Positions 6,083-24,669 of a stretch of 27,666 bases of DNA are shown piece by piece. Source of the DNA: a virus; IMG/VR virus record IMGVR_UViG_3300027770_000210, positions 1-27,666 of that record, one strand, 5' to 3'. Positions within the stretch are counted from its first letter, which is position 1. Each line of letters starts with the position of its first letter. The position numbers and the translations under genes are program-made. Below the pieces are notes generated by a model. The model saw nothing but the letters and a program-made list of their open reading frames with translations, was not told the DNA's origin and did not search any database.

Positions 6083-6876
6083 GCTACTATAATATATCCG
6101 TATGTTTTATCTGCTGTATCGTTTGCAAAATGTTTTAGTGTTGCACTTCCACTACTTCTAGCACTTACATATACATTAGTAGATGCTGAAGTTGATACAT
6201 AAGTCATTGTGGTAATAACGCTTGGTGTAGCTGGTCTTGTTGGACTTGTACCTGCTGCATAATGTTCTATAGACACACCAGTATCAGATACTTTCCACAT
6301 AAGTTCAACATAATCACCTGCTACTAATTCTACATAAAAGTTTAATGCACCAATAATATGACTTGGGTCACCAGAGGATTTTCTTGCTGCTAAACCAAAC
6401 CTACTGTTTGATGCTGCAATATCTGTGCCATTTTTTCTAAACCAAACTTCTGCGTCTTGAGAGTCGTTAGTTGTATTCTTAAACTGTATAGAAAACTCTA
6501 AATTATAAAGACCACTATTTCTTACATTAAGCCTAGAACTGTTTGACAAATAAACACCATTAGAAAAGTCAGTAGTGTTAAATGTAATTGCATAAGCTGC
6601 TGTTGTTGATGCAGCAGTTTGGTCAGTTGAGTCTTGAAACGCACCATAAGGAACAGCATCACTACCAGCAGCAGCACTAATAGGTGTTAGTAATATTATA
6701 CTATTAAAGCCTATACGTTCATCACTAATTGTTGTAGTTGTAGCATTTCCTGTAGCTAAAGTAATTGTACCAGTATTATTGCTTTTACCTTCTACAAGGT
6801 TATTTACAATTTCAGCTACACTTCTGGCATCACCACCTGTCCAAGGTAGTTTACGGTACATATCACTACGTGCCAT
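6079..6876 (-). CDS. Virion protein with C1q/TNF-like jelly-roll domain
   Basis: 265 residues. The N-terminus (MARSDMYRKLPWTGGDARSV) looks like a virion-attachment module. A Thr/Ser-rich beta region follows, then a segment (about residues 100-220) with the strand order and spacing of a C1q/TNF jelly roll: NVRNSGLYNLEFSIQF, AEVWFRKNGTDIAASN, LNFYVELVAGDYVELMW, VSIEHYA. This fold trimerises and is used in phage fibre tips and decoration proteins. A good AAGGAA Shine-Dalgarno precedes the ATG. It lies between the large tail protein and the GNAT-like protein. I suggest a fibre or tail-tip protein; the exact position in the virion cannot be told. Confidence 0.65.
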   Translation of the reverse strand: MARSDMYRKLPWTGGDARSVAEIVNNLVEGKSNNTGTITLATGNATTTTISDERIGFNSIILLTPISAAAGSDAVPYGAFQDSTDQTAASTTAAYAITFNTTDFSNGVYLSNSSRLNVRNSGLYNLEFSIQFKNTTNDSQDAEVWFRKNGTDIAASNSRFGLAARKSSGDPSHIIGALNFYVELVAGDYVELMWKVSDTGVSIEHYAAGTSPTRPATPSVITTMTYVSTSASTNVYVSARSSGSATLKHFANDTADKTYGYIIVA

Positions 6877-8915
6877 TATCTAGTTCCTTGTTCAGAGTAA
6901 TCTATATCCATGCCAATTGCTGATGACCAGTTAGCACCGGTAGGTGTTAAACTTATTCTATGATAACGACCTGCACTTCTTACAGCACATCTATCTTCTT
7001 GGCTTGCTGTTACTGCTGTACCATATGTAATAGTATCGTCTAACATGCGTCTAGAAGCTACAGAAACGCTTGCAGAGCCATTATCTACAGACGGTCTAAT
7101 AAGAGTAAGCACAGAGTTATAATTGTATTCTAAGTCGTTTGTAGTGATAGTTGCTGTAGCATTATCTCCTGTGAATGTAATAATTTTAGTATCACGAACA
7201 CCACCAAATAGGAATTTACCACCAGCATATAATCTATCATCTAGTGTAGTAGTAAGAGTGTCTATAGTTTTGAGTGCTGCTGTAGAATCTGCCATATCAA
7301 TAGCAACACCTGTGCCTGAACCTACACCTGTAGCTGTAAATAATACACCTATAGTATTAGCAACTGCACCAATATTTGTAAATGATGTGGATGCTTCTAC
7401 ATTACCACTTGTTGAACCTGATGCTACTGTAGTAAGTGTAAATGTATTTGCGTTTGTAACTGTAATAGTATAATTGCCATCTAAAGCAGTTCCGCTAGTA
7501 AAATCTATAGCTAATACATTACCATTAGAAAATCCATGAGCTGTAATAGTTACTGTAACAGTTGTTCCTGTTCTACTATATGTTCCTGTTTTTGTGCCTA
7601 AACTTCTAATAGTATATTCTTTAGTGGCTACAAAAGAACCTGCTGTTACGTTATAAGCAGTATCTATACCATCTAATGATACGCCTGTAGTGGCTAGAGT
7701 TGATAAATAGTCTACGTCTGTATTAGCTTCGCACCATTTTTGTGTTTGAAAGTTATAGATAAGTAATGAACGACTACCAGATATGTTAGTGTAATTCCAA
7801 ATAATAAGGTTACGTTCTGGGTCTACTGCTGCTGATATAGAGTCAATGTCACCAATGTTGGCGTTGTTAAAGAAATATCTGTCTACTTTTTCTGCTCCAA
7901 TACCTGTAATTTGTTGACCATTGCAAGCATAGAAACCATCATCTGATAAGAAATATGTAGTGCCAGAATATTGAGCTATAGAACCACCTTCTATACAACC
8001 TACGTTACGACTGATAGTGTCAAATTGAAAGAACAATGGTGAGCCAATGTATGACATACGCACAATGGCTTTTTCTAAAAATATAATACCAAATTCACCA
8101 CCTGTAATGCCTGTAATATCACCACCGTCAGGAAGTTCTTGGAAGTCACTTTGTGATGCTGCGCCTGGTGTCCAGTCTGTTGGGTCATTAATATCAGACC
8201 ATTGAACACGTGATGGATATGTACCAGCACCTATATTTGCACAAACAACAAAGTCACGAACTGTTGTAATGTATTTTGCAACAGGAGCGGCTGCGGCTAA
8301 ATCACCAAAATAAGAAGATGCGTTTATATCGTAATATTGAACTTTGTTAGAGCCATTAGCAGCTAGTGCATAATTACCAAATTGTAAAAATTGCCATCTA
8401 TATGTGCCAGCATAAGCACTTCCTATAACTGTTCCAGTAGCAGCAGCACTTGTAATATTTGCGTTGACTTTAGCATAAGTAAATGTAGTAGAAGTGGGAA
8501 CAGTAGTAATGACATAACTGCCATCAAATACATTATCACTTGCGTCTACTGTTACGCTATCACCTATACTGTAACCATGAGCAGAAGCAGTAGTAATTGT
8601 TGCTACGTTAGATGTTAGTGCTACATTACTTATTGTTCTTGCTGCACTTTTACCAACATTATCTAATGCTAAAGTAGATGAGTTTAGTTTAAATAGTTTA
8701 GTCAGACCGCCTGCAAATACAGAAACATCATTATTTATCTTAGTTGCAAAAGCATTGGTTAAATTTTCAGATGCGCTTGCAGAATAGTTTACAGCAGATT
8801 TGAATGAACCATATCCTACAGCTAATGGAATAACATTATTAACTTCTGACACAGCATCTAATATGCTAGGTTGGTCAGGTAGCCATTCTTTAAATTGTAT
8901 GCGTTGTGTAGGCAT
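6876..8915 (-). CDS. Large tail structural protein (nozzle/hub candidate)
   Basis: 679 residues and beta-rich throughout. The N-terminus (RIQFKEWLPDQPSILDA, then NVIPLAVGYGSFKSAVNYS) is a conserved start I associate with a widespread phage structural protein in genomes with SU10-like heads. Residues about 55-330 contain repeated beta segments (SVFAGGLTKLFKL, YRWQFLQFGNYALAAN, FVVCANIG, GIIFLEKAIVRMSYIG, TYFLSDDGFYACNG) like the blades of a propeller, as in P22 gp10 or T7 gp12 nozzle proteins. Two immunoglobulin-like insertions with the NVATITTASAHGYSIGDSV and VTITAHGFSNGNVLAIDF pattern are also present. Nozzle/hub of a short tail is therefore the best guess, but no diagnostic motif confirms it. 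Confidence 0.6.
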   Translation of the reverse strand: MPTQRIQFKEWLPDQPSILDAVSEVNNVIPLAVGYGSFKSAVNYSASASENLTNAFATKINNDVSVFAGGLTKLFKLNSSTLALDNVGKSAARTISNVALTSNVATITTASAHGYSIGDSVTVDASDNVFDGSYVITTVPTSTTFTYAKVNANITSAAATGTVIGSAYAGTYRWQFLQFGNYALAANGSNKVQYYDINASSYFGDLAAAAPVAKYITTVRDFVVCANIGAGTYPSRVQWSDINDPTDWTPGAASQSDFQELPDGGDITGITGGEFGIIFLEKAIVRMSYIGSPLFFQFDTISRNVGCIEGGSIAQYSGTTYFLSDDGFYACNGQQITGIGAEKVDRYFFNNANIGDIDSISAAVDPERNLIIWNYTNISGSRSLLIYNFQTQKWCEANTDVDYLSTLATTGVSLDGIDTAYNVTAGSFVATKEYTIRSLGTKTGTYSRTGTTVTVTITAHGFSNGNVLAIDFTSGTALDGNYTITVTNANTFTLTTVASGSTSGNVEASTSFTNIGAVANTIGVLFTATGVGSGTGVAIDMADSTAALKTIDTLTTTLDDRLYAGGKFLFGGVRDTKIITFTGDNATATITTNDLEYNYNSVLTLIRPSVDNGSASVSVASRRMLDDTITYGTAVTASQEDRCAVRSAGRYHRISLTPTGANWSSAIGMDIDYSEQGTR

Positions 8916-8918
8916 GGT

Positions 8919-10199
8919 TTACTCGTAAGAAATATTTACAGAACCGTTATCAAATGTATCTGCGCCTGTTCTTGTAATACGAACTCGGTCTAATGTTCCA
9001 CCAATTGTAACACTTCCACCAGTTACTGTAACTCTATTAGTACCAGTAAATTGAAATCCAGAACCATTAGCAGTCCATATATTACTACCCATATAATTTA
9101 ATATTAAAGCTCCACAATGTTGTTGTCCTGCAGAGGTTTGAATAATTCCAAATCCAGTAGTAAAAGCAGTTGTAGAAACTCCTGTACTGACTACTGAACA
9201 CCCACCTTGATACCCTGTTGTAGTAAATGTTGTTGAGCCAAGTTGAATTAATAAATCTTCAGTTCCAGTTAAACTAACATTATTAAACATTATTGTAACT
9301 CTTTTAACCCAATTAGGAATACCAGTAAAATCTATAGTTGTTCCTGATGTAGTAGCTTGTGCAGTTGCTGATGTAATAGTTAATGCACTTGGTGTTACTG
9401 CTCTTAATGTATTAGTTCTAGCAGATAAATCAGCAGAAGTAGCTAAAGCCACAATACCATATCTTGTAGCAATACAAGTACCAGCAGATGTTACAGAACT
9501 ACCATAAGTAATAGTAAATGAACTTCCTGAGGCAGTTACAACAGTAAAGTCACCTGCTGTTAAAGCACTACCTGATGTATTAGTAAATGTAATAAAAACA
9601 GTTTGTCCAACTGCAAATGTATTGGTAGCTGTAATTGTAATAGTTGCACTAGCGCTTGCAGAATAAGAGCCTGATACCACCGTATTAGATGCTGCATTTA
9701 ATGCAGCGCCTTGAATTAAATCAGAAGTTGTTGCAATAGTGCCTGATTTATCAGGAACTGTAAGAGTTCTAGTTGTTGCTGTAGTAATACCTGATAGTTC
9801 TAAAGCTAATTTTTTTGTGATGTCAGTTCCATCAACAACAAAAAGTTTATCGTCTTTAAATGTTTGTGTGCCTGTCCATGTATTATCTGCTGCTAAAGCT
9901 GCTGTAGCTGCCGCAGTTACAAAAGCAGTTGTAGCTACTTTAGTTGTATTATCAGCAGGTGCTTGCGTAGGAGCAGTAACATTACCAGTAAGTGTACTTG
10001 TGCCTGTTACAGCAAGATTGCCACCTACTGAAAAATTATCACCACTTGTGCCAGCTTGTTGGTCTTTAAGTAAAGCCATAAGTGAACGCATAGAGTTATT
10101 TACGTTAGCTGGCGAACATCCTTCAGCAATATTAATATTAGTTATATCGGTATTATCTGCTGCGGTTGCACTAAATTCTGAAATTTTATTCTTTGCCAT
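8919..10199 (-). CDS. Tail fibre protein
   Basis: 426 residues. The N-terminus (KISEFSATAADNTDITNINIAEGCSPANVNNSMRSL) is the common phage tail-fibre attachment module with the 'NVNNSMRSLMA' signature. It is followed by fibre repeats (NLAVTGTSTLTGNVTAPT, APADNTTKVATTAFVTAAA) and a beta-rich Thr/Ser/Ala C-terminal half that ends FDNGSVNISYE. The length and the repeat elements match trimeric side fibres. It lies 3 nt from both neighbours in the fibre cluster. The C-terminal half, not recognised, is where host binding would lie. Confidence 0.75.
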   Translation of the reverse strand: MAKNKISEFSATAADNTDITNINIAEGCSPANVNNSMRSLMALLKDQQAGTSGDNFSVGGNLAVTGTSTLTGNVTAPTQAPADNTTKVATTAFVTAAATAALAADNTWTGTQTFKDDKLFVVDGTDITKKLALELSGITTATTRTLTVPDKSGTIATTSDLIQGAALNAASNTVVSGSYSASASATITITATNTFAVGQTVFITFTNTSGSALTAGDFTVVTASGSSFTITYGSSVTSAGTCIATRYGIVALATSADLSARTNTLRAVTPSALTITSATAQATTSGTTIDFTGIPNWVKRVTIMFNNVSLTGTEDLLIQLGSTTFTTTGYQGGCSVVSTGVSTTAFTTGFGIIQTSAGQQHCGALILNYMGSNIWTANGSGFQFTGTNRVTVTGGSVTIGGTLDRVRITRTGADTFDNGSVNISYE

Positions 10200-10202
10200 C
10201 TT

Positions 10203-10922
10203 TTATCCTTGTCGTAACCAAATGTCTATACTTGGAGTTGTATCAGTCCAAGTTTCTGTTCCTGCTGTAATTGTTGTCCATGTATCTGAAGACGGTGATA
10301 TTGCAGACCATGTTTCTGAACCTGCTGATACTGGTGTCCATGTTTCTGCGCCTGGAGTAACAGGTGTCCATCCTTCACCTTGTATTGTGCCTTTAGCAGT
10401 AACTGCTCCTATACCTTCTACATAAGCATATCCTGCGAATATAGCGTTAGGTCTTGCTGTAACAAAAGCAAACCCATTTACTTGTGCATTACCTGAGTTT
10501 ACTAAACCACCAAGTGCTGTTACTGTAGCTGTTCCTGTAATAGAACCTATGCCTGATAGTATGCGGAATCCATTAGCTGTAACTGTAGCATTGGCTGTTA
10601 TAGAAGCATTACCAGATTGTAGTAATGAACCTATACAAGTGACTGTGCCATTTGCTGTAATACTTGCCGAAGCTAACGCTATAGAACCACCGGTAGCACT
10701 TACAATGGCAGTTCCTGTAATGGATGCACTACTAAACTGTATTCTATTGGCTATAGCAGATACATCTGCAAATCCATTTATAGTTGCATTACCAAATACT
10801 AATGAACCGCTTAGGGTAACTGTAACTGTTGCGGTAGCAGTAATACTAGCATTTGCAAACTGCGTTCCACCTGCTGCTAAAGAGCTAAATGGTGTTTGTG
10901 AAAATGCACTTATACCAAACAT
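10203..10922 (-). CDS. Two-part repeat protein: 8 x 20-residue beta repeats then 10-residue Trp repeats
   Basis: 239 residues. After a short head (MFGISAFSQTPFSSLAAGG) the protein is almost only repeats. Residues about 22-181 are eight units of exactly 20 residues with the pattern x-x-x-N/S-A-S-I-T-G/A-x-A-T-V-T-A-x-x-G, which would suit a beta-solenoid or a stacked-strand fibre. Residues 185-239 are five units of 10 residues, WTPVTPGAET-like, with Trp at 185, 195, 205, 215, 225 and 235. A very strong AAGGAG Shine-Dalgarno precedes the ATG. Position between a tail fibre and the oxygenases suggests a virion fibre or appendage. I know of similar proteins in environmental phages but no assigned function. 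Confidence 0.65.
   Translation of the reverse strand: MFGISAFSQTPFSSLAAGGTQFANASITATATVTVTLSGSLVFGNATINGFADVSAIANRIQFSSASITGTAIVSATGGSIALASASITANGTVTCIGSLLQSGNASITANATVTANGFRILSGIGSITGTATVTALGGLVNSGNAQVNGFAFVTARPNAIFAGYAYVEGIGAVTAKGTIQGEGWTPVTPGAETWTPVSAGSETWSAISPSSDTWTTITAGTETWTDTTPSIDIWLRQG
10221..10370 (-). repeat. Five 30-bp coding repeats (10-residue Trp units)
   Basis: Encodes WTPVTPGAET, WTPVSAGSET, WSAISPSSDT, WTTITAGTET and WTDTTPSIDI, followed by a sixth Trp. Each unit begins with Trp and ends in an acidic-Thr (or equivalent) pair. Confidence 0.75.
10380..10859 (-). repeat. Eight 60-bp coding repeats (20-residue beta units)
   Basis: Encodes residues about 22-181 of the repeat protein. 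Register is kept without insertion or deletion across all eight units, shown by the recurring ASIT / ATIN / AQVN core and the GxATVTA that follows it. Confidence 0.7.
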
Positions 10923-10945
10923 ATTTAACTCCTTAAAATTTAATA

Positions 10946-11488
10946 TTATCTTGCTTTATCAAAGCAATGATTCCAATATTCTCCATTTAATCTAACATAA
11001 TGTAAAAATACTTGACCGTAATGTTTTCCCTTATAAGCATCTCGCCAATGTTCAGATTGCATACCAAGATATATAACAGCCTGTCCTGGCTTTAAGTTTT
11101 GACTCACTACTTCACCATTGGGCTTAGTAAAGTAAATATCCCAATCTTTATCGCCACCAAGATTTAAAGTAACGCTTACTTCACAAGCTGGTCTATCTGT
11201 ATGTTTCTTTAACACTTCGCCTTTAGCATATATTCTTGAGTAAGCATAAGTAGGTAATAAAGGTTCTCCTACTGCTTTATTTATAAATGCAACTTTTTCT
11301 GCTAATAACCCAAGCACCCATCTATAGTTATAGATTGCTAATGACTTAGGGCATTGTTCATCTTTGACAAATGATTCAGGAAAGTTTTTAGCATCATCCT
11401 GAAATTGCTTATACATTTTGTTTGCTTTATCAGGAGTGATAAAATTGTCTATGAATAAATAATTGTTATCTTTTAACTGTTTAATCAT
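10946..11488 (-). CDS. 2-oxoglutarate/Fe(II)-dependent oxygenase (second of tandem pair)
   Basis: 180 residues with the double-stranded beta-helix pattern of prolyl-4-hydroxylase-like oxygenases. YSRIYAKGEVLKKHTDR contains the HxD iron pair (His96, Asp98). VSVTLNLGG and WDIYFTKPNGEVV are core strands. The distal iron His is His147 in SEHWRDAY, followed by a QVFLHYV strand. The canonical Arg about ten residues after the distal His is not obvious, so co-substrate contact may use Arg149 or another residue. The enzyme would hydroxylate a protein or small molecule in the cytosol using 2-oxoglutarate and O2. Its start overlaps the stop of the other oxygenase gene by 4 nt. It differs strongly in sequence from that neighbour, so the pair is probably not a recent duplication. 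Confidence 0.8.
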   Translation of the reverse strand: MIKQLKDNNYLFIDNFITPDKANKMYKQFQDDAKNFPESFVKDEQCPKSLAIYNYRWVLGLLAEKVAFINKAVGEPLLPTYAYSRIYAKGEVLKKHTDRPACEVSVTLNLGGDKDWDIYFTKPNGEVVSQNLKPGQAVIYLGMQSEHWRDAYKGKHYGQVFLHYVRLNGEYWNHCFDKAR

Positions 11489-12069
11489 TTAAAGTTTTTA
11501 CCTGCTACCCACATAACTAATGTATGACGCATACCTTTAGTGACTGGTGTTACTTGATGTAACATATATGATGGAAAGAAAGTAGCCATACCTTGTTGCT
11601 TTGTAACTACAACTGGTTCTCCACCTTCAAATATTTGTAGCTCCCCACCCTTATAATCTTTAGGGTCGGTTAATTGAACTACTATAGATAATTTTCTTGA
11701 TGTACCATATAAAACTTTATCCATGTGTTGCTTATAATGGTCACCTTTTGGACCATACTCTGTAAATTGTATATCTTCACAGAATCCATATAAGTCAAAC
11801 TTAAAGTATTGGTCATTTATTGCTGGTATAATATTAGATAATTTTTCATACATCCAACCTAAATCATCTCTCTCATTAAGCCATACTACTTTGTTTTTTC
11901 TAATCGTGTGATTGACAACGCTGGTATTGTTTTTTGTATAAACACCAGCTTCTGCTTTGCTACCTTTTTTATTAGCAAATTCTATAATTTTTTTACATTC
12001 TTCAGGTGTAAATACATTCTCTGCAAATGCCCAATTCTCTACTGTATCTGTATGAAATAGCCAAGCCAT
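11485..12069 (-). CDS. 2-oxoglutarate/Fe(II)-dependent oxygenase, PKHD/prolyl-hydroxylase type
   Basis: 194 residues. The full catalytic set is visible: HxD iron ligands His115 and Asp117 in YKQHMDKV, distal His171 in MLHQVTPV, and the 2-oxoglutarate-binding Arg181 in KGMRHTLVMW. The strand-helix layout (KLSIVVQLTD, GGELQIFEGG, GMATFFPSYM) is that of PKHD-type hydroxylases (PiuC/P4H-like). Phages carry such enzymes often; proposed targets include host proteins, nucleobases and virion proteins, none shown here. An AAAGGG Shine-Dalgarno precedes the ATG, and a candidate sigma-70 promoter lies 26 nt upstream. Placed in the middle of the fibre genes with its overlapping partner. Confidence 0.88.
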   Translation of the reverse strand: MAWLFHTDTVENWAFAENVFTPEECKKIIEFANKKGSKAEAGVYTKNNTSVVNHTIRKNKVVWLNERDDLGWMYEKLSNIIPAINDQYFKFDLYGFCEDIQFTEYGPKGDHYKQHMDKVLYGTSRKLSIVVQLTDPKDYKGGELQIFEGGEPVVVTKQQGMATFFPSYMLHQVTPVTKGMRHTLVMWVAGKNFK

Positions 12070-12122: not shown

Positions 12123-12464
12123 TGTAGATTCATTCCATATATATTCTTTATTATCTGTAGGGTAAGGTAAAGGCGATTCCCATAACCAAGTAGATGTATT
12201 TATTACCCAAGATTCAAAAGGTTTTGGCGGATAAAATACATCATTTTCTTTATCGTATATATAATCAATACCTGCGTAATTACCTCTTAAAGCAACACCA
12301 TTATCAGGAAGTCCGTCTTGTCCATAATGTATATTGCCACGAGTATTATATGATGTTTGTATCCATAATGATGGCTCACCTAAATGACCTTCATTAATAA
12401 AGTCTTGTTCAACAACAAGCACTTCTTTTACTATGCCATCAACAACTTTTGCAAAGTGACTCAT
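12096..12464 (-). CDS. Conserved phage virion-region protein, function unknown
   Basis: 122 residues. It begins MSHFAKVVDGIVKEVLVVEQDF and contains WIQTSYNTRGNIHYG, ALRGNYAGIDYIYD, VFYPPKPFESWVIN and paired Trp segments near the end. This string of motifs is one I recognise from a protein widespread in cyanophages and other aquatic phages, always small and usually next to tail-fibre genes, without an assigned function. It overlaps the poly-Gly protein gene by 4 nt. Composition (Trp/Tyr-rich, beta-prone, no membrane segment) fits a small structural or fibre-associated protein. Function is not known. Confidence 0.7.
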   Translation of the reverse strand: MSHFAKVVDGIVKEVLVVEQDFINEGHLGEPSLWIQTSYNTRGNIHYGQDGLPDNGVALRGNYAGIDYIYDKENDVFYPPKPFESWVINTSTWLWESPLPYPTDNKEYIWNESTLSWDESTV

Positions 12465-13495
12465 GCTGTGTATGTTCCTGTGCCTGTAAATGTAATAATA
12501 GTATTAGAACCACTGGGTGCTGTACTTACATTTGCTGGTGGTCCATATGTGCCTGAATACAATGCTGTAGGTACTGATAATATAACTACCCCAGCTCCAC
12601 CTGCACCACCTTGACCTCTATTAGGAGTTCCGCCTGGTGCTGCACCTCCACCACCGCCTCCACCTGTATTAGCAGTTCCAGATGTTGCTACAGCTCCTGG
12701 TGAGTTCATACCACCATTACCACCACCACCTGTTCCACCAGTACCACCACCTGTAGTAGCGTTAAGACCACCACCACCACCACCAGAATAATAATTACTT
12801 GTAATTGGAGATTGTAAACCAACTCCTCCAGGACCTGCTGTTGTTGAAGCAGCTGACCCAACTGCACCAGCACCTCCACCACCTCCACCTCTTTGTGAAA
12901 CAGCAGTGCCACCAGCATTACCTTGTCCTGGAGTACCAGCTCCACCTGCACCATTTGCAGGACTAGGAGTTCCAGCTGGGCTATTATTAGCACCACCACC
13001 ACCACCTGACCCGCCTGTTCTACCTGCTGTTCCTGGAGAGCCTGGTGGATTAGAGTTACCACCTCCACCGCCGCCTGTAGATGTAATTGTAGTAATTGGT
13101 GTTCCAGAAAGGCTAGTATCCGTACCACTAGGAGCAGACACCGGACTTGGACCAAGATTACCTGTTCCACCACCGCCAATAGTTGCTGTATATACAGAAC
13201 CAGCTACTAATGTGACTGTGCTACTTAAATATCCTCCGCCACCACCGCCACCACCACGAGTACCACCACCGCCGCCTCCACCAGCTACAACTACATAACT
13301 AGCAGTATATGAAAGCGTTTTACCATAGAAATCTGTAGGCATAATAATGTTGCCAGTAGGTATACCAGCTAAATTTCTGACATCTGTATCAGTTAAAGAT
13401 AATGTGCTAGAGCCAGGAAGTCTTAATTCTTTAGCAATAGCTACTCCAGCAGTAGTACCATTTAAACTAATTGGTCCTGACGAATTCATTGTCAT
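12461..13495 (-). CDS. Glycine-rich tail fibre/adhesin
   Basis: 344 residues. An N-terminal module (residues 1-60: SSGPISLNGTTAGVAIAKEL, then TDTDVRNLAGIPTG and MPTDFYGKT) is a common phage virion-attachment module. From about residue 68 the protein starts a glycine-rich domain (YVVVAGGGGGGG) with many runs of 3-8 glycines separated by short Asn/Ser/Thr/Pro-rich loops, closing with GAGVVILSVP near residue 310 and a C-terminal strand (NTIITFTGTGTYTA). Such domains occur in fibre tips. Poly-Gly helices packed as a polyglycine-II sandwich form the receptor-binding tip of phage S16 gp38, and this protein may use the same solution. AAAGG Shine-Dalgarno before the ATG. A receptor-binding role is inference. 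Confidence 0.7.
   Translation of the reverse strand: MTMNSSGPISLNGTTAGVAIAKELRLPGSSTLSLTDTDVRNLAGIPTGNIIMPTDFYGKTLSYTASYVVVAGGGGGGGTRGGGGGGGGYLSSTVTLVAGSVYTATIGGGGTGNLGPSPVSAPSGTDTSLSGTPITTITSTGGGGGGNSNPPGSPGTAGRTGGSGGGGGANNSPAGTPSPANGAGGAGTPGQGNAGGTAVSQRGGGGGGAGAVGSAASTTAGPGGVGLQSPITSNYYSGGGGGGLNATTGGGTGGTGGGGNGGMNSPGAVATSGTANTGGGGGGGAAPGGTPNRGQGGAGGAGVVILSVPTALYSGTYGPPANVSTAPSGSNTIITFTGTGTYTA
12566..13285 (-). repeat. Low-complexity GGN-rich coding tract (poly-Gly loops)
   Basis: Seen on the plus strand as repeated ccaccacc runs. It encodes the glycine-rich domain of the fibre. It opens false ORFs in the other frames (a poly-Val/Leu/Gln one on the same strand, a poly-Pro one on the opposite strand). 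Confidence 0.7.
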
Positions 13496-13496
13496 G

Positions 13497-14663
13497 TTAT
13501 TTAACCTTTAATTCATCTATTTCTTGTTTTAACTCTTTAATAGCTTCAATTAATACGCCTACAATGTTTCCGTAAGCTACAGATAAAGTTTTCATATCGT
13601 CGTTTGCTTCTACTACAACTTCAGGCAATACTTGTTGAACTTCTTGTGCTATAACACCAAGACTATTTATTCCGTCTCTATCAAATGTTACTCCACGTAA
13701 ATCCATAACTTTATTTAGTGCATTATCAATAGTTTTGATATTAGATTTAAGCCTTCTATCAGAAGTTGCAGTAAAATTAACACCAGTATATGAATTGCTT
13801 GTATTTAAAGCATTAGCTGTAGTTGCTGTAGTGGCATTAGTTGCATTAGTAACTGCTGTTGTGCTGATTGCTGCAACAATTTGAGCTGCTGTAGCTGTTG
13901 TTAAAGCACCTGTAGTTGTTGTGCTATATACTAAACCTGTAGTATTTGCTGATGTTCCTGCAGAATAGTCTGTACCTGATGTAGCTGCTGAAAATGCAGA
14001 TGTACCACTGCCTTTAATAATACCTGTTAATGTAGTTGCACCAGTACCACCGTTTGCTACTGGAAGTGTACCTGTAACTCCTGTAGATAAGGGAAGTCCA
14101 GTACAACTTGTTAAAGTTCCAGATGAAGGTGTACCTAAAATTGGTGTAGTTAAAGTAGGTGATGTTGCAAATACTAAATCACCAGAACCTGTTTCACCTG
14201 TTACTGCTGCTGCCAAGTTAGCACTTGTAGGTGTAGCAAGAAATGTAGCTACATTAGTACCTAAACCACTAACTCCTGTAGAAATTGGCAATCCTGTAGC
14301 ATTTGTAAGAGTTGCAGATGCTGGAGTTCCTAATGCAATAGCATTACCACTGGCGTCTGTGTATATACCTTTACCAGCAGGATATGTAACAAATACATTT
14401 TTTGTACCAGTACTGAAGTTTACTGCACTTCCACCATTGCTAGATGATAATATAGTATCACGAGATAAAGCAGTGCCTACAGCTGTATAAGTTCCAATAC
14501 CTACTTCCCATTCTGCACCACCTACAATAGCGTAGTAAGTAGTATTACCATTGCCGATAACAGAGAATGATTGGAAGCCAGTAACTGCACCTGCAAGCAC
14601 AAGTGCAATAGTGCCTACGGTTACAGTAGTTTCCTGTACTCTATCCTTGACTACTAGAGCCAT
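13497..14663 (-). CDS. Tail fibre with C-terminal intramolecular chaperone (Peptidase S74)
   Basis: 388 residues. The N-terminal part (residues 1-120) includes a phage fibre module ([20 protein letters not shown]-like strands, [20 protein letters not shown], then [14 protein letters not shown]). The shaft (about 115-295) has repeats of the [20 protein letters not shown] and [20 protein letters not shown] types. The last 88 residues are a Peptidase S74 chaperone: SDRRLKSNI starts at Ser301 with Lys306 as the catalytic partner, then [34 protein letters not shown] and a terminal coiled coil. S74 domains drive trimerisation and then cut themselves off before the Ser, so the mature fibre should end near residue 300. 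Confidence 0.88.
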
Positions 14664-14672
14664 GAGTTATCC

Positions 14673-15059
14673 TTACGCTAATGTAACTGAAAGATTGCCT
14701 GTTGAAATCTTAAAGATGTCACCAGAGTCAATTGTTTTAGACGTATCTAAAGGTGAATGGTATAAAAGATTACCTGAAGTAGCAGCATCATTAATACCAA
14801 TCCAACCTACTGTTCCCCATGAAGCTGTACAAGTTGGGAATGTTACGTCAGCAGAGTTAGTAGTTACACCGTTAGAAGGTGCTGCAAATGTGACAGCAGT
14901 TCTAGCGTAAGAACCACCAGATACTTCTGTGCCACTACCTGCGTCTGTAGGGTCTGAAGTCCATAGTGATACATATACTGTTGCTACGGATGTGTATGTT
15001 GTGTTTCTTAGAGTTGCATTAATAAGTGCGTTCTCTAAAAAGTTACTGATTTCTGCCAT
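14673..15059 (-). CDS. Conserved small beta-rich virion protein
   Basis: 128 residues. The opening NFLENALINATLRNTTYTSV and the run VYVSLWTSDPTDAGSGTEVS, SYARTAVTF, WGTVGWIGI, GNLLYHSPL, SGDIFKISTGNLSVTL form a pattern seen in many phages, often annotated as a tail or virion protein of the gp80-like kind. It lies between the adaptor and the S74 fibre, consistent with a tail role such as fibre attachment. No enzymatic motif. Function beyond 'virion component' is not supported. Confidence 0.65.
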   Translation of the reverse strand: MAEISNFLENALINATLRNTTYTSVATVYVSLWTSDPTDAGSGTEVSGGSYARTAVTFAAPSNGVTTNSADVTFPTCTASWGTVGWIGINDAATSGNLLYHSPLDTSKTIDSGDIFKISTGNLSVTLA

Positions 15060-15069
15060 AATATTTTCC

Positions 15070-15678
15070 TTATCGTGGTGTTACGTTTAATGTGGTGTAT
15101 GCGTATGTTTGACCTAAGTCACTTGTTTTGATATTAGCAATTGCTCTATCATATAATGATGACCATGTTGCTACTCTTGGGTCGTTCATTAAATAAGGTT
15201 CTGCTTCTGCTAATGTTGCGTAAAGCAAAGCATCTGGGTAGTATGCTAAATACAAGTTACTAGCTGTTGTGCTAGAAATAAATGTTGGTTGAGCATAGTA
15301 TAAAATTTGAATGGTGTAAGTTGCATCTTGGCTAGGTGCAAACTGGAACTCTGTGCCTAACATTGTAAAGAAATGGGAACGACCTGATAATGATGTTTGA
15401 CCATTACGGAAGAACAAGTCAGGTGATTGAAACTCTAAGATAATAGGTGGGTTACCCTGGAAGTGCATCTCTCTTAACTCTAGAAAGTCAGTAGGAAACG
15501 CTACTTTATTATCTGTAGCTGTAGTAGTTGCAACCTTTAACATAGCCTCTGTTCTTAAGTCACGACTCATTCTTAACTGTGCCATCTGAATAAAGTCAGG
15601 GATAACAGTTGTTAAGTCTGTTCTAGCTAGATAGCTTTCTACCGTTGATACAAAGGTAGTATAGTTTGTAAATGCCAT
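15070..15678 (-). CDS. Head-tail adaptor (SU10 adaptor-like / gp4-like)
   Basis: 202 residues. The N-terminal helices (TTFVSTVESYLARTDLTTVIPDFIQMAQLRMSRDL region, residues 6-45) with the 'I-x-x-F-I-x-x-A-x-x-R-x-x-R-x-L' pattern, the middle FLELREMHF and the C-terminal FAPSQDATYTIQILYYA followed by YPDALLYATLAEAEPYL are features of the podovirus head-tail adaptor family found after the capsid gene (SU10 adaptor type). It would form a dodecamer under the portal and link it to the nozzle. In this genome the gene is separated from the capsid gene by a glycosyltransferase and a methyltransferase. Confidence 0.75.
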   Translation of the reverse strand: MAFTNYTTFVSTVESYLARTDLTTVIPDFIQMAQLRMSRDLRTEAMLKVATTTATDNKVAFPTDFLELREMHFQGNPPIILEFQSPDLFFRNGQTSLSGRSHFFTMLGTEFQFAPSQDATYTIQILYYAQPTFISSTTASNLYLAYYPDALLYATLAEAEPYLMNDPRVATWSSLYDRAIANIKTSDLGQTYAYTTLNVTPR

Positions 15679-15687
15679 TCGTAATCC

Positions 15688-16200
15688 TTATTGTTTTTTA
15701 ACTAATACGATACAACCGTTATCTATCTTTACTTGTTTAACTATAGTAAAGCGAGTGCTGAGATGTTTATTCCACCACTCTAAAGGTTGTTGTATAAGAT
15801 GTGCGTTTCTACCGTCTGGTAATATTTTCATTGCTGGACCAGTATGTATTGTAAATAGTCCGTATTTATTTACTACTCTTTTTAAATCATCTAGCACGTT
15901 ATCTAGTAATTCAGGTTCTATATGTTCAAGAACGTCTATACATGTTACAAATTCGTTTGGTTCTGGTGTTTGACTCCATAATGGATTACTAGGTTCATAG
16001 GGAGTGTAGATTACTTCTGACTTCATGCTATCTTTTAGTCTACATTTACCTGCACCGTAGTCTAATAAACTTGTAATACCAAAACTCTGTATAACATCAT
16101 CAACGATTGGTGCAAAGAATGTACTTGCTATCCCATAGTCAGGGTTCTCATGCAGTTTTGTCTGCATGTCTCTATATTCGTTAGAGATTAAGTTGTTCAA
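15688..16200 (-). CDS. SAM-dependent methyltransferase (class I, small)
   Basis: 170 residues. SAM-binding motif I is SLLDYGAGKCRL at about residues 44-55; the acidic end of strand 2 is YEPSNP; motif IV/post-IV is FVTCIDVLEHIEPE at about residues 84-97 (the D-V-L-E-H-I signature of Methyltransf_11/23 proteins); then FTIHTGPA. It is shorter than most class I methyltransferases and lacks an extra substrate-recognition domain. It overlaps the C-terminal end of the TPR-glycosyltransferase gene by 20 nt, so the two are translated together and may act on the same glycan or protein. A substrate cannot be read from the sequence; sugar O-methylation is plausible. Confidence 0.75.
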   Translation of the reverse strand: MNNLISNEYRDMQTKLHENPDYGIASTFFAPIVDDVIQSFGITSLLDYGAGKCRLKDSMKSEVIYTPYEPSNPLWSQTPEPNEFVTCIDVLEHIEPELLDNVLDDLKRVVNKYGLFTIHTGPAMKILPDGRNAHLIQQPLEWWNKHLSTRFTIVKQVKIDNGCIVLVKKQ

Positions 16201-17503
16201 TGACTTCTTTCCATGTTCTATCGTCTTGATAAATTAGTCTCATGTGTCTATACCAAGGCATACTTGGCTGAGCATAACGCCATTGGTGATATTTAGGTAC
16301 TAAGCACCATGTTTTAACGCCCATAGCAGCACTACAATGTAAAGCTGTAGTATTGACCCCTAAAACCATATCACAAGCTCCTATAAGAGCTGCTGTATCA
16401 TCATAATCTTTTGCGTCTGACGCTAATTCAAAGTACTTAACACCTTCAATTTTGCTTTCTACGCTATAATCTAAACTAACTAACTGTATATCTTTGCGTT
16501 TTAGTAGTGGTTGTAAGTCTTCTTTTGTAAGAATACGACCTTTAGAGTTTGTTCTAAATGTACCACCTTTAGTAGTGATACCTATAACTATCTTACCCCA
16601 TGGTTTAAACATGGCTTTCCACATCTCAACCTTATCTGTATCAGGTACTAGAAAAGGAGTCCCAGGAAAAGACTTGCTCGTTGGTCTACAAAACTGAGGT
16701 AACCCACCAATAGCACATCTTGCATCAATTGTAACTCCATCTACCCACCTCGCATCTTCTTCTTTACGTGTGCCATATACTTCTGCTTTAGGAAAGCTAC
16801 GTTGAAATAGCGTTTCTAATCGTTTATCGCACTCTATATATACTTTGTTACTAATAGTTATAGCATCAGGAATACATGACGCATAAAATATCTCATCACC
16901 TAAACCTTGTTCACCATAGATAACTAAATTCTTACCTGATGAACCATTCCATTTAAATTCGTCTTTATAGACTATCTCTTTACGAAACTTTCCACCTAGT
17001 GACTTGTCCCATTCTATCCAACCTTTTTCCCATTCACCTTTAGCTAGGTAACTATGTGCTAGGTTTAATTGTGCGTGTAGTTCGTTAGGATTGCATTCTA
17101 GAGCCATCTTTGCTGACTTCTCTGCATCTTCCCATTTAGACATCTGAACAAGTGAAGCAGAAGCGTTAGCATAAGCTAGTGCATAGTTAGGGTCTAACTC
17201 TGCTGACTTTAAGAAGTATTTAATAGCTTCATCAAACATATCCATTTCATGACATGCACGACCTAGAGATGTCCATAATGCTTTATTGTTTGGTGATTCT
17301 TGTAGTGACCTACGGAATAACTGGTATGCAAATGCAGGCTTTTCACCCATCAACCAGATGTATCCTAGAAAATGTAATGTAGCTGCATCATTAGGATAGA
17401 CCATTAATACTTCGTTAATAATAGGTAAAGCTACCTCATAATCTTCTTTTTGTATAAGGTCATGTATTGCTAACTGTACGTTCTTTAATTCGTCTTTATC
17501 CAC
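16181..17503 (-). CDS. TPR-domain glycosyltransferase (GT-B, GT9/OGT-like)
   Basis: 440 residues in two parts. Residues about 5-170 are tetratricopeptide repeats (ALPIINEVLMVYPNDAATLH, RRSLQESPNNKALWTSLGRA, EAIKYFLKSAELDPNYALAY, AEKSAKMALECNPNELHAQL). Residues 190-440 are a GT-B-like domain: VIYGEQGLGDEI at 194-205 (the glycine loop typical of heptosyltransferase/GT9-like proteins), VIGITTKGGTFRTNS, and a C-terminal nucleotide-sugar region (DDTAALIGACDMVLGVNTTALHCSAAMG). The TPR part usually binds a protein substrate, as in O-GlcNAc transferase. The gene lies directly behind the capsid gene pair and overlaps both neighbours, suggesting virion glycosylation, but there is no direct evidence for the target. 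Confidence 0.8.
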   Translation of the reverse strand: MDKDELKNVQLAIHDLIQKEDYEVALPIINEVLMVYPNDAATLHFLGYIWLMGEKPAFAYQLFRRSLQESPNNKALWTSLGRACHEMDMFDEAIKYFLKSAELDPNYALAYANASASLVQMSKWEDAEKSAKMALECNPNELHAQLNLAHSYLAKGEWEKGWIEWDKSLGGKFRKEIVYKDEFKWNGSSGKNLVIYGEQGLGDEIFYASCIPDAITISNKVYIECDKRLETLFQRSFPKAEVYGTRKEEDARWVDGVTIDARCAIGGLPQFCRPTSKSFPGTPFLVPDTDKVEMWKAMFKPWGKIVIGITTKGGTFRTNSKGRILTKEDLQPLLKRKDIQLVSLDYSVESKIEGVKYFELASDAKDYDDTAALIGACDMVLGVNTTALHCSAAMGVKTWCLVPKYHQWRYAQPSMPWYRHMRLIYQDDRTWKEVIEQLNL

Positions 17504-23970: not shown

Positions 23971-24669
23971 TTATAGTTCTGAGTCTTTGTTGTTACCCTT
24001 AAGTGGGTATATCATTCTTTGGTATGTGTCCCACCATTCTTGACTATAGTCTGTATTCTGATAGTCTTTAAAACATGGTGTGCCTAATGTGTGGTGTATC
24101 AATTTAGCATCTGGGTTGTATTCGTATTCTGTCTCTAGCCAGTTCCATGTATCGTCTAGCTTGCCTACTTGGTCTTCATGTTTTAACCATTCAAACCTGT
24201 GTAGGTATTTACCTGACTTATCCATAACAAACTGTGGTGTCAGTTGTTTGTTTAAATGATGCCCGCAATTCCATAACATAACGCTTGACCAGTTCTTTTT
24301 AGGATAGTCTTCGTTCTTTGCACCCAAGTATTTAACAGGATGCTTTGTTTGGTAATAATGCTTTACGACTTTTAGAGCTTCGTCTTGGTCATGTTCCCAT
24401 AGTATTTCTGCTATATCTGTTCGGCATATCATATCGCCATCTACAAATAGTGCCATGCCTTTAAAGTCACATAGATATGGAACTAAAAAGCGTGAATAGA
24501 TAAATGCGTTACTACCGTCTGTGTGTGTTTCTTTGTATTCTGATAATGTGTTTAGTGCTAATGGTGTAAAACTAACAGGTATTGATGACTTCTCAATGAC
24601 TGACTGACAGAACGTGTGATACGCTACCGGCTCTACCTTACCATCAAATCCTACAAATATTTTAAGCAT
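23971..24669 (-). CDS. Glycosyltransferase, GT8-like (GT-A fold)
   Basis: 232 residues. IFVGFDGKVEPVAYHTF is a family-8 type nucleotide-sugar strand start; AFIYSRFLVPYLCDFKGMAL leads to LFVDGDM with the DxD metal motif Asp77-Gly-Asp79; LWNCGHH and LIHHTLGTPCF (with the second His) are further conserved pieces of the fold. It would transfer a hexose from a UDP/GDP-sugar in a metal-dependent reaction. In this genome it sits between the small-protein cluster and the terminase genes. Possible targets are host lipopolysaccharide, phage DNA base modification or virion glycan; the sequence does not decide. Active-site residues are complete. Confidence 0.8.
   Translation of the reverse strand: MLKIFVGFDGKVEPVAYHTFCQSVIEKSSIPVSFTPLALNTLSEYKETHTDGSNAFIYSRFLVPYLCDFKGMALFVDGDMICRTDIAEILWEHDQDEALKVVKHYYQTKHPVKYLGAKNEDYPKKNWSSVMLWNCGHHLNKQLTPQFVMDKSGKYLHRFEWLKHEDQVGKLDDTWNWLETEYEYNPDAKLIHHTLGTPCFKDYQNTDYSQEWWDTYQRMIYPLKGNNKDSEL

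Follow-up and report, generated by a model that had tools for sequence, protein, structure and literature searches.

A fibre gene cluster in the viral record IMGVR_UViG_3300027770_000210 encodes a 239-residue protein in which one short repeat gives way to another of half the length, and the locus raises the question of what such a protein does. We approached it through the sequence architecture of the protein, its relatives in other viral contigs, predicted structures and gene context. The whole stretch of DNA that was analyzed, positions 1 to 27,666 of the record (27,666 nucleotides), is referred to below as the window, and the features on which the argument draws are collected in Table 1.

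Table 1. Repeat protein, its parts and the neighbouring structural genes in the window.
Feature	Coordinates	Strand	Basis
Repeat protein (rope-like), 239 aa	10203-10922	-	ORF and periodicity analysis
Ribosome-binding site AAGGAG, upstream of ATG	10929-10934	-	read from sequence
N-terminal motif MFGISAFSQTPFSSLAAGG, residues 1-19, candidate docking peptide	10866-10922	-	alignment of relatives
Eight 20-residue repeats, residues 20-179, consensus about ..I..G.AxIxGxAxVxAxGx	10386-10865	-	
Six 10-residue Trp units, residues 180-239, ending ..DIWLRQG	10206-10385	-	
Tail hub / "stabilization" protein, downstream of fibre cluster	6876-8915	-	phrog_3287 virion structural protein; name from relatives' neighbours
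Fibre-like protein directly downstream of repeat gene	8919-10199	-	phrog_4209 tail fiber, weak
Gly-rich fibre-like protein, same cluster	12461-13495	-	PF21722
Fibre with S74 intramolecular chaperone, between bead and repeat genes	13497-14663	-	PF13884
Bead gene, homologue of GP4 fibre I protein gp80	14673-15059	-	PF23140 6e-48; PDB 8jou_a 5.6e-13
SU10-type head-tail adaptor, neck protein just upstream of bead	15070-15678	-	PF24175 2.6e-29

Repeat architecture and its conservation

The ORF is preceded by what we rated a good ribosome-binding site, and its central block is made of eight 20-residue units without a single insertion or deletion. Identities at a lag of 20 residues number 51 out of 140 in this block, whereas 10,000 shuffles gave 14.5 on average and never more than 28. 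The lag-20 z score of the ORF is 11.2, whereas the best non-overlapping ORF in the window reaches 3.4, which leaves the repeat protein as the sole window ORF with such a 20-residue period. The initial annotation had described eight exact repeats; this holds for their length and register, but not for their sequences, since the mean pairwise identity of the units is 29% (range 0-60%; 45% for the DNA). Because unit length is exact while the sequences have diverged, the array is old rather than the product of recent tandem duplication, with its register maintained by selection. Within each unit, positions 7-19 alternate small or aliphatic residues (A, I, G/A, A, V, A, G) with mostly polar Thr/Ser, so that each unit would consist of a single long beta-strand with two different faces and a linker.

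The earlier observation that the period halves to 10 after the repeats was confirmed. All Trp residues of the protein (185, 195, 205, 215, 225 and 235) belong to this tail, and the chance of all six falling into one residue class modulo 10 is about 2e-7. Relatives were collected in a scan of viral contigs, of which the best 80 of 324 were kept. Among these, 71 of 73 distinct proteins of the close, P0001-like lineage carry six Trp exactly 10 residues apart, the other two being fragments with five Trp that are cut at a contig end; the same arrangement is found in 57 of 64 members of a second lineage. In two more distant lineages, seeded with Venkman and ct2t2046, the spacing of 10 is retained, with mostly four or six Trp.

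Comparing repeat number in close relatives, as had been suggested, did reveal copy-number change. The repeat block of the 73 distinct close relatives comprises 8 units (the window and a few others), 9 units (most) or 11 units, so that its length changes by about 20 residues at a time, with the Trp tail remaining constant. Repeat blocks in the Venkman- and ct2t2046-seeded lineages also differ by about 20 residues, and some members have three repeats fewer. The alignment of close relatives further revealed that the N-terminus carries a short, almost invariant motif, MFGI..FSQ.PFSSL, the counterpart of which in Venkman is MYGLSAFSQSPYSAL. The protein had been described as lacking an N-terminal attachment module, a statement that needs qualification because this motif may be one.

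Two Methylophilales phages encode proteins of the same class. Venkman gp51 is 40% identical to the window protein and has 4 Trp units in place of six, while MEP402 gp62 (profile match to the window lineage, E 3e-15) differs from it in having less regular repeats and a Trp every 13 residues. Public annotations of the class are misleading, and include "serine-rich adhesin" and "putative E3 ubiquitin-protein ligase HERC6" (L082:20001-20777, L083:14723-15439). MEP402-type proteins encoded by the gene next after the bead gene (L382, L385, L372) start with a repeated 8-residue motif, R[IV]TE.GD, and the R..RxLxV pattern at the end of BcepIL02 gp56 is loosely similar and could perhaps be a docking motif. 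One 571-residue repeat protein, encoded directly after a bead gene (L334:1074-2786), has the octad motifs, repeats and Trp tail usual for these proteins, preceded by an extra N-terminal domain.

Database searches with the window protein returned no match in Pfam or NCBIfam, sugar-binding families included, just weak matches to unknowns in PHROGs, and nothing significant by sequence in the PDB. The lack of a family match does not prove that the protein cannot bind sugar. The Trp tail alone, when searched against phages, retrieved the closest relative only. No relative was found among bacterial genome contigs, which therefore offer no prophage or host hint.

A gp80-family bead gene and its repeat-protein partners

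The initial annotation had overlooked a gene upstream of the fibre genes, hereafter the bead gene, whose product matches the Pfam family named "Podophage GP4 fiber I protein gp80" and a chain of PDB entry 8JOU, entitled "Fiber I and fiber-tail-adaptor of phage GP4". Fibre I of GP4 is reportedly built from five gp80 dimers joined by an elongated rope protein, with five such fibres per virion. The bead gene of the window follows the gene for a neck protein, an SU10-type head-tail adaptor, and the portal and major capsid proteins are likewise of SU10 type.

The surrounding genes also include several of other predicted functions. Two genes inside the fibre cluster and upstream of the repeat gene (10946-11488 and 11485-12069) encode a 2OG-Fe(II) oxygenase (PF13640) and a protein that falls into a PHROG family labelled "ferrochelatase". 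Between the capsid and adaptor genes lie a methyltransferase-like gene (15688-16200) and a gene for a TPR protein whose C-terminal half is glycosyltransferase-like (16181-17503), and a glycosyltransferase-like gene is located near the terminase gene (23971-24669); judged by eye, these three genes are putative sugar/methyl-transfer cargo.

Genes encoding 20-residue repeats accompany bead genes well beyond the window. All 71 scorable loci of the L084-like lineage have the two genes side by side, the start of the repeat gene following the bead gene at a distance of 3-5 nt. Window-like loci that were fetched with the bead and extend at least 5 kb downstream contain an ORF of period 20 in 37 of 38 cases, and the bead is present in 68 of 80 P0001-like loci (the best 80 of 324), with just one locus that has enough upstream sequence lacking it. 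The least biased test of the pairing is given by loci fetched with the MEP402 bead only. The gene that follows the bead in these loci has a median z score of 4.6 at lags 18-22; for 355 other ORFs the median is 1.0 (Mann-Whitney p 4e-28). In 59 of the 80 loci, this gene shows the strongest 20-residue periodicity of all ORFs. A strict cut-off of z at least 5 is passed in 36 of the 80; 30 of these 36 belong to the 49 loci that extend 5 kb or more downstream. The six MEP402-like next genes inspected from loci that fail this cut-off encode degenerate repeats with a C-terminal Trp tail. Since the contigs are related, these counts do not represent independent events, and the spread of the pair over named phages carries more weight.

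Bead and 20-residue-repeat genes are adjacent in named podo-, sipho- and myophages. The GP4 relatives of the BcepIL02 group have the repeat gene directly after the bead gene: in BcepIL02, a gene that matches GP4 gp81 is followed by the bead (gp55), the repeat protein (gp56) and gp57, a member of the fibre-tail adaptor family of GP4 gp77, and the same bead/repeat pair occurs in DC1, JC1 and BcepMigl. DSL-LC06 encodes a bead, a repeat protein and a gp77-like protein; phiM5 and C72C1 have the pair with Trp units after the repeats; and in CRP-4 the neighbour of the bead is weakly repetitive. The pair of mycobacteriophage LeBron (gp21/gp22) is part of its minor-tail cluster. Directly after the bead gene, the myophages PVJ1 and Lietuvens encode a protein with a weakly repetitive N-terminal segment (z 2.2 and 1.5) that is fused on its C-terminal side to a Mu-Gp48-like baseplate domain. 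No repeat-gene neighbour was seen beside the bead homologues of ACP17, Mvi-JY20 and DB2.

The window departs from this arrangement in several respects. Its repeat gene is not beside the bead gene but 3.75 kb away, and no gp77-like adaptor was detected in the window, which is possibly a genome fragment, using a two-sequence HMM. Comparison of the window protein with BcepIL02 gp56 gave no detectable homology (hhalign probability 0.2%, with shallow profiles), and the window protein differs further by its additional six Trp units. The GP4 rope sequence was not among the matches of the PDB sequence search.

A proposed rope-like role and the alternatives

Two features of GP4-type fibre I are encoded in the window, namely a gp80-family bead and a long repetitive partner protein. 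The initial proposal that the repeat protein is a fibre component is supported by its gene context and by the pairing with a bead of known structure, and we infer that it is located at the neck in complex with the bead. With moderate confidence, we interpret it as the rope, or thread, of a two-component bead-chain appendage similar to GP4 fibre I. This interpretation is an analogy, in that the protein may work like a GP4 fibre-I rope, and strict membership of GP4-type fibre I is not claimed.

In such an appendage, each repeat would supply a beta-strand of about 13 residues with one small/aliphatic face (Ala, Gly, Ile, Val) and one Thr/Ser face, and a single bead, or a bead dimer by one of its sides, would dock on each strand, leaving a linker of about 7 residues between successive beads. 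The number of repeats would therefore set the bead count and the length of the fibre. The rope would end in the short N-terminal motif on one side and in the Trp tail on the other. The Trp tail had been interpreted as a possible sugar-binding surface, a reading that gained no support; anchoring or capping of the rope appears more likely, and the baseplate fusions in PVJ1 and Lietuvens suggest that the C-terminal side is the anchored, virion-proximal end. The appendage itself would be situated at the neck near the SU10-type adaptor, where it could aid an initial, flexible contact with the cell.

A more specific version of this model, which we offer tentatively and hold to be possible though doubtful, is that repeat number acts as a molecular ruler with one gp80-type bead per 20-residue repeat, that copy-number change tunes both fibre length and valency, that the fibre is common to podo-, sipho- and myophages, and that the tail with its Trp every 10 (or 13) residues is a dedicated anchor or cap. 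The 10 bead chains of GP4 in 8JOU and the approximately 11 repeats of BcepIL02 gp56 (counted by eye) are compatible with a ratio of about one repeat to each bead. Repeat blocks of 9 or 11 units, being odd-numbered, are hard to reconcile with dimers and count against the rope interpretation.

There is structural precedent for a partner chain that threads through gp80-like dimers, since the gp30 chain of phage Sf14 threads through neck whiskers that carry gp31 dimers (PMC11821841). In these whiskers (gp30/gp31 of Sf14 and Bas63; PDB 9C39, 9MT4), gp31 is a distant and weak relative of gp80, and the gp31 homologue of Sf17 (9c39_K) matches PF23140 weakly (E 1e-4, below the curated cut-off); unlike the window protein, the 166-aa gp30 homologue of Sf17 has no 20-residue repeats. 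The homologue of the Mooglevirus whisker protein gp31 (9c39_K) at L412:6921-7253 is thus a candidate distant member of the gp80 family, below the Pfam cut-off. The Anabaena myophage A-1(L) likewise carries a neck-attached bead-chain fibre, formed by gp82-gp81-gp80 (PMC10966104). That fibre differs from the one proposed here in having no rope: trimers of gp81 are its beads and connect head to tail, and its gp80 is a different, distal protein rather than a GP4-type gp80 bead.

The main competitor is a rod within the same gp80-type appendage, in which the repeats fold on themselves into a beta-solenoid of 20 residues per coil, the beads decorate or cap it, and the Trp tail serves as C-terminal cap or anchor. 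AF2 with 52 sequences modelled the window protein with low confidence (mean pLDDT 49), with about one 12-residue strand per repeat and a Trp tail near 40. For a MEP402-type relative, bead and repeat protein were folded as one chain, the in-frame TAA between the adjacent genes being read as a residue; this fusion is a modelling device that informs on the folds of the parts and, as it yields no contact information, not on docking. The bead part matches 8jou_a and also the neck proteins of Bas63 and Sf14, while the repeat part forms a beta-helix over residues 157-364 (pLDDT mostly 59-73) with Z scores of 13-17.6 to many unrelated right-handed beta-helices. The best, insignificant PDB matches of the profiles also include the DUF2807-type beta-helix proteins 4opw and 3lyc. 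From the models, the beta-solenoid shaft originally suggested is therefore possible. AF2, however, reportedly tends to model repeat sequences as solenoids that are confident yet unrealistic (PMC11795689), and a solenoid of 8-11 coils would measure about 40-55 A, probably too short to link a GP4-like chain of bead dimers. We regard the rod as rather unlikely.

Less probable still is the reading closest to the initial one, an independent tail fibre or spike whose shaft is a solenoid and whose Trp-lined tip binds sugar. The position of the gene within a fibre cluster and the strictly conserved Trp spacing would suit such a spike, but the close relatives have no hypervariable tip of the kind that receptor-binding ends often have, the pairing with the bead gene is constant across several phage groups, and the repeats of PVJ1 and Lietuvens lead C-terminally into a baseplate domain. 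A role apart from the gp80 fibre, as a head decoration or some other virion protein brought next to the bead only by the general conservation of late gene order, seems very improbable to us, even though the PHROG label is "head protein" for the bead and "head and packaging" for BcepIL02 gp56. P0001-like and Venkman-like phages keep both genes although fibre genes separate them, and the presence of the pair in myophage baseplate clusters and in the minor-tail cluster of LeBron indicates that it moves as a unit.

Returning to the rope, virion proteomics of JC1 detected the bead (gp53) and the adaptor (gp55), whereas the repeat protein gp54 was not detected (PMC9144972). The tryptic peptides predicted for the window protein are 60, 60, 57, 60 and 2 aa long, and because proteins of this type yield almost no usable tryptic peptides, their absence from trypsin-based data would mean little. 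The scarcity of trypsin sites explains why proteomics can miss such repeat proteins. Our findings suggest a likely role for widespread phage repeat proteins that are unnamed or misnamed in public records ("serine-rich adhesin", "E3 ubiquitin-protein ligase HERC6", "hypothetical protein"), a role that is assigned through pairing with a bead protein of known structure. The same bead/repeat pairing could serve to annotate this type of fibre in many phage genomes.
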